A stretch of 64,000 bases of DNA from Nitrospirales bacterium (GTDB taxonomy: Bacteria > Nitrospirota > Nitrospiria > Nitrospirales > UBA8639): positions 62,001 through 126,000 of the forward strand of contig JAJEJG010000005.1 in NCBI GenBank assembly GCA_022828225.1, in the 5' to 3' direction. Both the position numbers and the translations under genes were made by a program. The notes below the pieces were generated by a model. It had not been told where the DNA came from and made no database searches. It was given only the letters and a program-made list of their open reading frames with translations. Shown one piece after another: positions 21,230-25,733 of this stretch. The number at the start of each line of letters is the position of its first letter. Position 1 is the stretch's first letter.

Positions 21230-22345
21230 ATGCAACAAACCCAAATTCAGCTTGACGGTGCAAAAAAATCGATCCGTTCGGGACTTGTTCCCGTCACCGA
21301 CCTTTACGAACTTGCCGATTGCCACACCAAACGGCTTTTTCTGAACCGTGAAGACGGCATAGACATTCCCCTCGTTCCCGGGGAATATTTGCTTATCCAT
21401 GGGGAAGAAAAATTTGTAGTCGGAGAAAGCTCTATAGAAAATAATCCTCCATTGCGTAATGAAGTGCGCCCTGAATTCAACGGTTTCTACAACCTTGCAC
21501 TTCCAAGCGCAAAAATTACCGGAAAATCACTCAAAGAAAAAGATGACAAATTCCCGACCGGGCGTCTGTTTGCAGACATCAAAGATGGCGTAGACGTGGA
21601 AATTTCAGACGACATGACGATTGTCGTCCAGGACAAGGATTCGTATTTTGTCATTCCCCCTGCCGCCGATGATGGCGATTCAACTGACCTTGAGGAATGT
21701 GGCAAGAATGAACGCAAACCGCCAAAGGGGAGAAAGTATCGAATCCGCATAGATGGCGACAAACACATCGTGGATTCGGCGACAATCACGGGAGCCGAAA
21801 TTTTGGGACTGGTTGGGAAGAGTTTCGATGAATGGTCACTCAACCAGAAACTCCACGGCGGCAAGCGGGAAAAAATCGAAGCAAAGGCCAAAGTCGATCT
21901 GACCCGCCCCGGCATAGAGCGTTTCGAAACCGTTCGGCGACAAGCGCAACAAGGCGAGATGGCTCTCTGCGAGTTATTACCGGAGGATCTCGAATACCTT
22001 GAGGCAAACTACCCTTCCAAATGGAGGCAGGTATCAGAAGGCAACGGGAAATTCGGATTGGTGATAGATGATTTTCCTATTCCGGATGGCTACAAGGAGA
22101 AGAAATCCACGCTCATGTTGCTCGTACCGAGTGGTTATCCTGGCTCGGTGTTGAACATGTTTTATTTCACCCCATCGCTCAACAGATCTGATGGCAAGGT
22201 AATAAAGGCGCTGGCATCTGAAACCCATTTCGATCGGACATGGCAACGGTGGTCGCGTCATTATGAGTGGAAGCCTGGAATTGATTCTGTTGTGACGCAT
22301 ATCGAATATATCAAAAACCAGATAGCCGAAGAATTGAGGCAATGA
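21230..22345 (+). CDS. Multi-ubiquitin-like (beta-grasp repeats) fused to a prokaryotic E2-like (family E) domain
   Basis: Three apparent beta-grasp segments (~res 10-70, 80-145, 160-240) followed by LLPEDLEYLEANYPSKWRQVSEGNGKFGLVIDDFPIPDGYKEKKSTLMLLVPSGYPGSVLNMFYFTPSLNR...HFDRTWQRWSRHYEWKPGIDSVVTHIEYI, resembling the Prok-E2_E family; next gene is JAB-ThiF. Confidence 0.82.
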   Translation: MQQTQIQLDGAKKSIRSGLVPVTDLYELADCHTKRLFLNREDGIDIPLVPGEYLLIHGEEKFVVGESSIENNPPLRNEVRPEFNGFYNLALPSAKITGKSLKEKDDKFPTGRLFADIKDGVDVEISDDMTIVVQDKDSYFVIPPAADDGDSTDLEECGKNERKPPKGRKYRIRIDGDKHIVDSATITGAEILGLVGKSFDEWSLNQKLHGGKREKIEAKAKVDLTRPGIERFETVRRQAQQGEMALCELLPEDLEYLEANYPSKWRQVSEGNGKFGLVIDDFPIPDGYKEKKSTLMLLVPSGYPGSVLNMFYFTPSLNRSDGKVIKALASETHFDRTWQRWSRHYEWKPGIDSVVTHIEYIKNQIAEELRQ

Positions 22346-23733
22346 AAACCGCCATTCTGGCGATGACCGAGCATCGCCACAAGGCGATTTTCAATCATCT
22401 TTTCCCGGGCGATGGATTTGAGGTTGCCGCGATTCTGCTGTGCAACCAAGGCACGGGAAAACAGTGCCAGCGCCTCCTTGTTGCGGATGTTTTGTCTCTT
22501 CCACATCGCCATTCTACGAGAAGACGAGACTCCCTTTCCTGGCCTTTTGGGGAATATTTGTCGCCAGAGAAAATTAGCGATATAGACCGGCGACGGCAAT
22601 CCATAGTTACGATTCACTCTCACCCCAACGGACACAACCGATTCTCCCGTGTCGATGACCGGAACGACCGCGAATTGTTTGCCTCGGTTGGCAACTGGTT
22701 CGACGACGGTCGCTTGAACGGATCGGCTATCATGCTGCCGGACGGCACAATCAAAGCGCGCACCGTTGACGTACATGGAAAGTTCGCTGGCATGGCGACG
22801 GTCTCCGTAGTCGGCGACGACATCCACATCTGGAAAGAGTTCAGACAAAAAAGACAAACCGCCTACCATGGCAAGCTATCGCAGACCTTCGGTCAAGGAA
22901 CCTTGAACCTGCTGCGTAGCATGAGAGTGGGCGTTGTCGGTTGCTCTGGCACCGGCAGCGTGATGATAGAATTGCTCGTTCGCAATTGCGTGGGCGAATT
23001 GGTCATCGTGGACGATGACGTTATAGAGGAGAAAAATCTGAATCGCATTGTCAATAGCACGATGAGCGCTGCGCGCAAGAAACGGCCGAAAATATCGGCA
23101 ATCAAGCAGGCAATTCGAGCAATCGGAATGAACGCAAAAGTGGAGGCGGTCCAAGGCTTGACTGATTCGCAGGAAGTCGTGCGGGCTTTGGTGGATTGTG
23201 AAGTAATATTTGGTTGCGTGGATTCCGCCTTTGGCAGGTATCATTTGGATTGCCTGGCAAGTGCATACCTGATTCCATATTTTGACGTGGGAGTCAATCT
23301 TGATGCCGATGGGCGGGGTGGCATTACAGCCGCTGATGCGGTCTCACATTATATTCATCCAGAGGGTGATAGTTTGTTGTCGCGTGGGGCATACACCATG
23401 GAACAGGTAACGGCGGAAAATTGGCAAAGAAAAGACCCTGCATACTACCGGCGGCAGCTTGTGGCTGGTTATTTGGCAGCAGTCGGCGAGGAGCAACCAG
23501 CCGTGATGTCCATTAACATGCAGGCGGCATGTATGGTTTTCAATGACTTCATGGCGCGTATTCATCGCTACCGCTTAGACCACAACAGGGAATTCGGAAG
23601 CCAACGGTTTCGACTGGTTCATGGACATCACGAAAACACGACGGACAAAGGGGAACCACATCCCTTGATAAAAAAATACATGGGAACCGGCGACGAGAGT
23701 TTGCTCGTGAGAAACAACACCAGCCATGATTAG
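22342..23733 (+). CDS. JAB/JAMM deubiquitinase-like domain fused to ThiF/E1-like adenylyltransferase
   Basis: VTIHSHPNGHNRFSRVDDRND (JAMM HxHP...SxxD), RVGVVGCSGTGSVMIELLVRNCVGELVIVDDDVIEEKNLNRIV (E1 Rossmann), CEVIFGCVDSAFGRYHLDCLASAYLIPYFDVGVNL; ATGA overlap with upstream gene. Confidence 0.9.
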   Translation: MKTAILAMTEHRHKAIFNHLFPGDGFEVAAILLCNQGTGKQCQRLLVADVLSLPHRHSTRRRDSLSWPFGEYLSPEKISDIDRRRQSIVTIHSHPNGHNRFSRVDDRNDRELFASVGNWFDDGRLNGSAIMLPDGTIKARTVDVHGKFAGMATVSVVGDDIHIWKEFRQKRQTAYHGKLSQTFGQGTLNLLRSMRVGVVGCSGTGSVMIELLVRNCVGELVIVDDDVIEEKNLNRIVNSTMSAARKKRPKISAIKQAIRAIGMNAKVEAVQGLTDSQEVVRALVDCEVIFGCVDSAFGRYHLDCLASAYLIPYFDVGVNLDADGRGGITAADAVSHYIHPEGDSLLSRGAYTMEQVTAENWQRKDPAYYRRQLVAGYLAAVGEEQPAVMSINMQAACMVFNDFMARIHRYRLDHNREFGSQRFRLVHGHHENTTDKGEPHPLIKKYMGTGDESLLVRNNTSHD

Positions 23734-24088: not shown

Positions 24089-25733
24089 CAAGGTCGTCAT
24101 TAAACATTTCAAGAAATTCGCCCACCAGGAATTCGATATTTCTCAGCACCTCGTTGTCGTCGGGCCGAACAACTCCGGGAAGACGACGCTTTTGCAAGCT
24201 ATTGCTGCTTGGGCGGAAATCGCCTATCAATGGTTGGAGAATAATCCGGATCTGGCACGAGAAGAAGACGGAAACTATCCAAGCACCAATCTTAACTTGT
24301 TAACATTCTATTCGGTTCCTCTGGCCGACTTTGAACACCTTTGGACAGACAAGAACATTCGGGAACCTGCATCAGTTTGGTTGCATACTGATCAATGGAA
24401 GATCGGCTTTGAGATCATTTACCACGAAAACGAGTTGTCTTACGTTCGTCCCGCCAAGGAGGTACACGAAAAAGATCTCGAACAGTACATTAAAGATCCG
24501 TTTGTACCAGTCTATATCCCACCCCTCTCGGGGGTAGAGATTAGGGAACCTTCCCTTAATTTAGCTGATGTTCGCCCTGCTTACTTTGCAAGAGCACAGG
24601 CGGGCAGCATACTGCGCAACTTGCTTCTTGCCGTCAACCAAGACACACAAAAATGGGCAGAGTTGCAAAGTGTCATTCAGAACTTTTTCGGTTACAAATT
24701 AGACCCACCAAGTGGAGGTGCACAGATACATGCCCGTTACCGCCATTCGGTAGAAGGCCAATCTTATGACTTAAGCAGTGCGGCAAGTGGTTTTTTGCAA
24801 GTTCTGATGATTTACGCCGCGTTGCTAGCAAAGGAAAAAACACGGGTTTTTCTGATGGATGAGCCTGACGCGCATTTACATCTTTTACTGCAAGATAAAA
24901 TTTATCGTGACTTGTACGATTTTTCTCAAAAAACTCGTTCCCAACTCATAATTGCCACACATTCTGAACGTCTGATAAACGCTGCTGTAGACGCAGATGT
25001 GAATAGTCTGCGCTTATTGGCTGGTCATCTAAAAAAAGTCCCGGACAAACATAAATTGGCAGACACCTTGGAATTGGAAAATGAGGAAATCGTGCTCGCC
25101 CAAACTGAACCGGGAATGTTGTACGCCGAAGGCTCCTCGGACGTTAACATATTAAGGGAGTGGGCGCGGGTTCTGGAGCATCCTTCCTTGCCATTTTTGG
25201 AAAAACCTTTCTGGAAGGAAACAGCATCAAATGCTAAGCCTGCCGTAAAACACTTCTCCACGATGAGATTACTTGTTCCCAATTTTCTAGGAGTAGAATT
25301 GCGTGACAGTGACAACAAAGAGCATCACAATCTACCAGAACCTCCGGAAGGCATGAAGCGCCTGTTTTGGGTCCGTTACGAGATTGAAAGTTATTTACTC
25401 CATCCCATGAGTATAAGTAGGTATGTGGAATCGAAAACGTCACAGGTATTTGCCGAGAAAGCGGAAGCGTATATGAAACAACAACTGCCGCCCGCATGGT
25501 ATGAAAATCCGTTTGAATCCTCCGATTTCTTATTGGACACCAAGGCGAAAAACGTCCTTTCAAACATTTTTCAGGAAGCAGGACTAAATGTAAGAGAATC
25601 AGACTTTTATCAAATTGCCGCGCAAATGAAGAAAGAAGAAATTCATCCGGAAGTGGTCGAAAAACTCAACACAATCTCTGCTCACTTCAACTTGGCAGTC
25701 GACAAAAACGAGGCTGAAGATAGCCGTAAGTAA
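24081..25733 (+). CDS. OLD-like AAA ATPase with C-terminal TOPRIM-like domain
   Basis: MIDKVVIKHFKKFAHQEFDISQHLVVVGPNNSGKTTLLQAI (Walker A), TRVFLMDEPDAHLHLLLQDKIY (Walker B), GMLYAEGSSDVNILREWARVL...GVELRDSD (TOPRIM-like E...DxD). ATG lies inside the 3' end of the previous gene. Confidence 0.85.
   Translation: MIDKVVIKHFKKFAHQEFDISQHLVVVGPNNSGKTTLLQAIAAWAEIAYQWLENNPDLAREEDGNYPSTNLNLLTFYSVPLADFEHLWTDKNIREPASVWLHTDQWKIGFEIIYHENELSYVRPAKEVHEKDLEQYIKDPFVPVYIPPLSGVEIREPSLNLADVRPAYFARAQAGSILRNLLLAVNQDTQKWAELQSVIQNFFGYKLDPPSGGAQIHARYRHSVEGQSYDLSSAASGFLQVLMIYAALLAKEKTRVFLMDEPDAHLHLLLQDKIYRDLYDFSQKTRSQLIIATHSERLINAAVDADVNSLRLLAGHLKKVPDKHKLADTLELENEEIVLAQTEPGMLYAEGSSDVNILREWARVLEHPSLPFLEKPFWKETASNAKPAVKHFSTMRLLVPNFLGVELRDSDNKEHHNLPEPPEGMKRLFWVRYEIESYLLHPMSISRYVESKTSQVFAEKAEAYMKQQLPPAWYENPFESSDFLLDTKAKNVLSNIFQEAGLNVRESDFYQIAAQMKKEEIHPEVVEKLNTISAHFNLAVDKNEAEDSRK

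Follow-up and report, generated by a model that had tools for sequence, protein, structure and literature searches.

The window examined here is a stretch of 64,000 nucleotides from contig JAJEJG010000005.1 of a Nitrospirales bacterium, and our subject is a run of four plus-strand genes at 21230-25733 in which a ubiquitin-like conjugation operon is followed by a gene encoding a relative of the OLD-family nucleases. An earlier note on this DNA had described four overlapping genes, and all four open reading frames are present at the claimed coordinates, with exact overlaps of 4 nucleotides between genes 1 and 2 (22342-22345) and of 8 nucleotides both between genes 2 and 3 (23726-23733) and between genes 3 and 4 (24081-24088). 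Gene 1 (21230-22345) encodes a BubA-BubB fusion, gene 2 (22342-23733) the BubCD protein, a fusion of JAB(JAMM) and ThiF/E1 domains, gene 3 (23726-24088) a metal-binding-type DUF6527 protein, and gene 4 (24081-25733) an OLD-family-like ABC ATPase with a C-terminal TOPRIM-type domain. The start of gene 4 is the ATG at 24081; the TTG at 24033 found in the list of open reading frames merely gives the longest open frame. The domains that the earlier note had proposed for genes 1-3 were recovered by hidden Markov model searches, with Multi_ubiq, Prok-E2_E, Prok-JAB, ThiF and DUF6527 all scoring above their curated cut-offs.

The product of gene 1 matches Multi_ubiq (PF14452, 1.3e-11) and Prok-E2_E (PF14462, 1.4e-28), and its AlphaFold model (predicted local distance difference test score 90.5) shows three beta-grasp-like domains followed by an E2 fold. 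The third beta-grasp domain matches residues 155-229 of BubA in Foldseek, and the E2-like domain (21965-22342) matches BubB (9eae_C) at 40% identity, with a TM-score of 0.88 (to target) and a root-mean-square deviation of 1.2. As in Bub proteins, this domain lacks the classical catalytic Cys: the only Cys residues of gene 1 are at positions 31, 157 and 247, the last lying at the N-terminal edge of the E2 domain. Cys157 (21698-21700), in a D-L-E-E-C-G linker ahead of the third beta-grasp domain, is invariant in 30 relatives despite the Cys-less E2. Gly242 (codon 21953-21955), in the context RRQAQQG/EMALC with the slash following the Gly, is likewise invariant in 30 homologues and is the predicted mature C-terminus of the ubiquitin-like protein. 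Because the fusion protein of Citrobacter plasmid pOZ181 is represented in the PDB by a BubA ending at Gly229, the equivalent of Gly242, and a BubB beginning at residue 230, and because the majority of homologues not fused to an E2 terminate two residues beyond the Gly242 equivalent, it is natural to infer that the JAB half cuts after Gly242 and that adenylation of this residue would come next.

Gene 2 aligns with Citrobacter BubCD (9ea4) across residues 6-452, nearly its full length, with an E value of 4.2e-74, and carries Prok-JAB (8e-8) and ThiF (3.7e-23) domains. Its JAMM motif, HSHx7SxxD at residues 92-105 (22615-22656), is intact, and Asp105 corresponds to Citrobacter Asp104, the residue mutated (D104A) in 9ea8 and 9eae. 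Gene 3 matches DUF6527 (PF20137, 1.2e-15) and takes the place of the small protein Y of class 6e; its alignment shows a C-x4-C ... C-x-C-H pattern specific to the clade linked to gene 4, which differs from the published protein-Y pattern C-x3-C-x35-38-H-x2-C. Class 6e of the polyubiquitin-like (polyUbl) systems, described by Iyer et al. in 2006, comprises tandem ubiquitin-like domains, a JAB-E1 fusion and the metal-binding protein Y (PMC1779556), together with an inactive E2/RWD-like domain that is in some cases fused to the ubiquitin-like domains (PMC1779556). The Citrobacter BubA, BubB and BubCD structures used for comparison were 9d59, 9ea4, 9ea8, 9eae and 9eav. Since genes 1-3 match these solved proteins and share the make-up of class 6e, they are filed as a Bub operon, which is an already known kind. 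Like other Bub operons, they encode a multi-beta-grasp protein fused to a Cys-less E2, a JAB-E1 fusion with an intact JAMM motif and a DUF6527 metal-binding protein, in the same gene order and with a Cap-type regulator upstream; unlike them, the window operon adds an overlapping fourth gene, and its clade has its own DUF6527 Cys/His pattern and an invariant Cys157. The Bub-type core was reportedly solved structurally in 2025, and the name Bub is said to be recent. Because the family of genes 1-3 had already been described as 6e/Bub, the suggestion of an under-described system proved too strong for the operon as a whole.

Two related systems were ruled out on domain content. Bil systems likewise combine ubiquitin-like, E1, E2 and JAB proteins, with a modifier of the multi-beta-grasp type, but their E2 has a catalytic Cys and their E1 and JAB proteins are separate (PMC11354881), whereas the window operon has a Cys-less E2 and a fused E1-JAB. 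Type II cyclic oligonucleotide-based antiphage signaling systems (CBASS), with Cap2 (E1-E2) and Cap3 (JAB), also pair ubiquitin-like transfer enzymes with an effector and can be regulated by CapH/CapP. The window operon encodes its own ubiquitin-like protein, and neither a CD-NTase nor an E1-E2 fusion is present among the ten proteins scanned at 12174-26615.

The product of gene 4 matches AAA_21 (1.1e-21) and AAA_15 in Pfam. Its top fold match in the PDB is the Thermus OLD nuclease TsOLD (6p74), with GajA and PtuA retrieved as well (Foldseek), and sequence profile searches of the PDB matched PtuA, OLD, AriA and GajA. In an alignment of 78 homologues the Walker A Lys34 and the Walker B Asp260/Glu261 are conserved, as in OLD-family ATPases. 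The TOPRIM-type residues E350-x3-D354, D409-x-D411 and E434-x-E436 (25116-25388) are conserved in the same alignment, Asp411 less so than Glu350, Asp354, Asp409, Glu434 and Glu436. They follow the order of the metal ligands of BpOLD, which are E400, E404, D455, D457, T506 and E508, the catalytic Lys of that enzyme being K562 (PMC6755086). The residues, their order and the fold match to 6p74 and GajA argue at moderate strength for a TOPRIM fold with the Glu and DxD residues of the OLD family. The OLD nucleases (class 1 TsOLD, class 2 GajA, the class 3 retron effectors and AriA/AriB of the phage anti-restriction-induced system, PARIS) share with gene 4 an N-terminal ABC ATPase, a C-terminal TOPRIM-type domain and this order of acidic residues; they occur alone or with a UvrD-like helicase, a reverse transcriptase or AriB, whereas gene 4 lies behind a ubiquitin-like conjugation operon.

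Upstream of the operon, and not mentioned in the earlier note, PADLOC identified a CapH/CapP pair at 19930-21134 on the minus strand. CapP (19930-20781; PADLOC capP 4.3e-58, Peptidase_M78 1.1e-12) is an ImmA/IrrE-like metallopeptidase whose HEXXH motif, HEIGH, starts at residue 79, and CapH (20778-21134; PADLOC capH 3.2e-26, HTH_3 5e-17) is a helix-turn-helix repressor divergent from the Bub operon. A repressor gene and a metallopeptidase gene thus adjoin an immune-type operon. CapH+CapP pairs are known to switch immune and Bub operons in response to DNA damage, and in a published survey 219 of 544 Bub operons adjoined CapW or CapH+CapP (PMC13373217). By homology, CapP is predicted to be a protease that is activated by single-stranded DNA and cleaves CapH, and the operon is probably damage-inducible through this pair. 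The 95-bp divergent intergenic region (21135-21229) contains an AGGAGG ribosome site ahead of gene 1 and is the putative location of the CapH operator and of the operon promoter. Promoter-like matches in this region occur at chance frequency, so the promoter is only presumed; no inverted repeat was found in it, and intergenic comparison with two other gene-4 loci (L005 and L013) in search of a common CapH operator revealed only weak similarity.

The association of gene 4 with Bub operons was assessed in a GTDB scan that yielded 80 gene-4 loci. The earlier note had taken the OLD-like gene to belong to the ubiquitin-like operon, which is complete for conjugation and deconjugation, and had named a lack of co-occurrence in homologous loci as refuting this. 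The gene does recur behind the other three: close relatives lie directly behind Bub genes in ten other loci (L003, L005, L006, L007, L010, L011, L013, L014, L066 and L070). The gene order is fixed, and wherever gene 3 was detected among these loci its end overlaps gene 4 (in most cases) or nearly abuts it. All Bub-linked copies fall within one clade of the gene-4 tree (16 rows, support 100), and in the BubCD tree 12 of 12 gene-4-carrying operons form one group (support 97/95). BubCD and gene-4 distances are correlated (r = 0.854, a value not reached in any of 5000 permutations) across about six phyla, the operons coming from Pseudomonadota, Bacteroidota, Rhodothermota, Chloroflexota, Latescibacterota and the window's own Nitrospirota. 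In an independent check on protein lists, 27 of the 120 best gene-4 and polyUbl clusters had a longest contig of identical size, compared with 0-1 in shifted controls, and the only two high-scoring gene 4 copies in the sample of the window's phylum both lie in Bub operons. Gene 4 has a single origin in the sample and was apparently gained by the Bub operon once in its history. A published account of the pairing was not found; the Bub-defining papers and Krishnan 2020 lie outside the searchable literature, and an earlier mention is possible.

On balance we favor a joint working model in which the window carries a damage-inducible variant of the class 6e Bub system with a dedicated, apparently once-acquired OLD-family ATPase/TOPRIM nuclease, the Bub proteins and the nuclease being probably coupled in function. 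By homology, CapH would repress the operon until CapP, activated by the single-stranded DNA that phage attack or damage produces, cleaves it. The JAMM half of BubCD would cut the gene 1 product after Gly242 into a three-domain ubiquitin-like protein and an E2 domain, the ThiF half would adenylate Gly242, and the Cys-less E2 would help to transfer the modifier to a target, with the metal-binding DUF6527 protein possibly serving as an adaptor. By analogy with the action of Cap2 on the cyclase in type II CBASS, conjugation to the OLD-like protein, or formation of a polymer around it, might activate or localize the nuclease, which could then destroy invader or host DNA. The more specific proposal of a ubiquitin-gated immune system, in which a modifier conjugated to or assembled around the system's own OLD-family nuclease licenses DNA destruction after CapP-triggered induction, is a tentative one that we regard as possible but well short of probable. 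Comparison of the clade-specific residues of gene 4 revealed no obvious acceptor site. The Bub pathway is poorly understood; its structures have been solved, but its protective output is undemonstrated (PMC13373217). A nuclease-type gene kept behind the Bub core across about six phyla gives the pathway a concrete candidate for an effector or a substrate, and this gene 4 branch makes the control of an immune nuclease by bacterial ubiquitin-like tagging testable.

Several observations weigh against the working model. Bub operons have yet to be shown to protect against phage (PMC13373217). The gene-4-positive BubCD proteins were mostly collected through gene 4, so that clade members lacking gene 4 may have been missed and the single-clade result is biased toward looking clean. 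The assignment of gene 4 as an OLD-family nuclease is good rather than proven because Pfam by itself misses the TOPRIM domain: of the OLD-like ATPase/TOPRIM protein proposed in the earlier note, the ATPase matches, OLD fold match and conserved acidic residues stand, but the Pfam TOPRIM models went unmatched even at an E value of 10 with the C-terminal part alone. Whole-protein TM-scores to OLD are low, at about 0.3, and the second Asp of the DxD motif, present in the window copy, is replaced by Asn in 9 of the 16 clade members. Close relatives of gene 4 also occur with no adjoining Bub genes (L002, which is 77% identical, L008 and L016), and in L009 the Bub genes have decayed to an E2-DUF6527 remnant while gene 4 survives intact, flanked by a DUF1156 methylase and a helicase. 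The remnant is a 102-amino-acid open frame (L009:9708-10013) in which a portion of the Bub E2 runs into the final stretch of DUF6527, a deletion having removed BubCD. L009 indicates that gene 4 can persist without Bub, and given this locus and the solo copies, the link between gene 4 and Bub is strong but not obligatory. The L004 locus is truncated by a contig end; an E1-like match in L012 was rejected as BubCD, being a MoeB-type protein.

Nor does the OLD gene form the fourth gene of Bub operons as a general rule. It takes that position in the ten GTDB loci, but among 399 genomes of the window's phylum, which contain seven clear BubCD proteins, gene 4 follows two and is absent from five, and it is absent beside all four plasmid Bub operons inspected. 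The plasmid search returned 92 records with most of BubCD, in which the only gene 4 matches are to distant ATPases.

The solo and decayed loci fit an alternative in which gene 4 is an autonomous OLD-type defense gene of restriction-type origin that shares CapH/CapP induction and acts independently of Bub. The sister clade of the gene 4 clade (29 rows) is compatible with such an origin, as it lives mostly in operons of a type III methylase, an OLD ATPase and a ResIII/TnsA helicase. Co-regulation alone, however, should produce more shuffling than is seen: the BubCD tree shows one gain only, co-divergence across phyla is strong, and the ends of gene 3 and gene 4 overlap in nearly all loci. We consider this alternative rather doubtful. 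A second alternative gives gene 4 the role of a sensing or targeting ATPase: it would recognize foreign or damaged DNA and select Bub substrates in the manner of an E3, with no killing activity in the TOPRIM domain. This reading draws on the role of OLD-ABC proteins as sensors in PARIS (AriA) (PMC12839542), on residue 235 near the ABC signature, which is Ala in the clade and Gly in all relatives outside it, and on the variable second DxD Asp. It appears unlikely, as every clade member keeps Glu350, Asp354, Asp409, Glu434 and Glu436, pointing to a functional nuclease center. The least likely alternative makes the operon a stress-response module for DNA damage, serving repair or protein quality control rather than defense against phage. 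This reading is consistent with the general response of CapH/CapP to DNA damage and with the proposal that Bub may serve either immunity or a broader stress response (PMC13373217), but is disfavored by the restriction-modification, Fic, helicase and other defense genes that adjoin the operon here and at several related loci, and by the kinship of gene 4 to the OLD family.

The sister operon encodes a type III-like DNA methylase (~950 amino acids), an OLD-like ATPase/TOPRIM protein and a ResIII helicase (~1050 amino acids) with a TnsA-like C-terminal part, and recurs in L015, L017-L028, L032, L036, L037, L040, L041, L045 and others. Its ATPase/TOPRIM protein is homologous to gene 4 (~30-40% identity); unlike gene 4, it has no ubiquitin-like genes beside it and is flanked by the methylase and the helicase-nuclease. 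This three-gene operon may be an undescribed restriction-type system. Six distant gene-4 relatives (G187, G308, G336, G290, G106 and G346) have one in-frame TGA within the match, possibly a terminal stop that was read through.

In the window, the Bub operon lies behind a tandem at 12174-19890 of an HKD/PLD-SNF2 helicase, a Fic/SoFic-like protein and a type IIG restriction-methylase, the last scoring 1188 bits in PADLOC; the helicase and Fic genes overlap by 4 nucleotides. Most of the loci that carry gene 4 adjoin other defense genes, in keeping with the working model. Defense neighbors at the related loci include type I restriction-modification systems (L005, L013), GmrSD with AbiEii (L066), a Cas9-like protein (L011), PsyrA (L005), a DpdF/GajB-like helicase (L014) and a DUF1156 methylase with a PLD helicase (L006, L007), and two loci (L003, L010) sit among housekeeping genes. 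The 20-nucleotide 3' end of a tRNA-Ser gene (11930-11949) is repeated exactly 204 bp downstream, at 12134-12153. This duplication resembles an attachment site and lies where the defense island begins on the left; a search of the window gave no third copy, and the rest of the genome holds only a copy with one mismatch. Downstream of the operon, at 26829-27553, a PrlF/MazE-like antitoxin gene overlaps a PIN-domain gene, forming a toxin-antitoxin-type pair.

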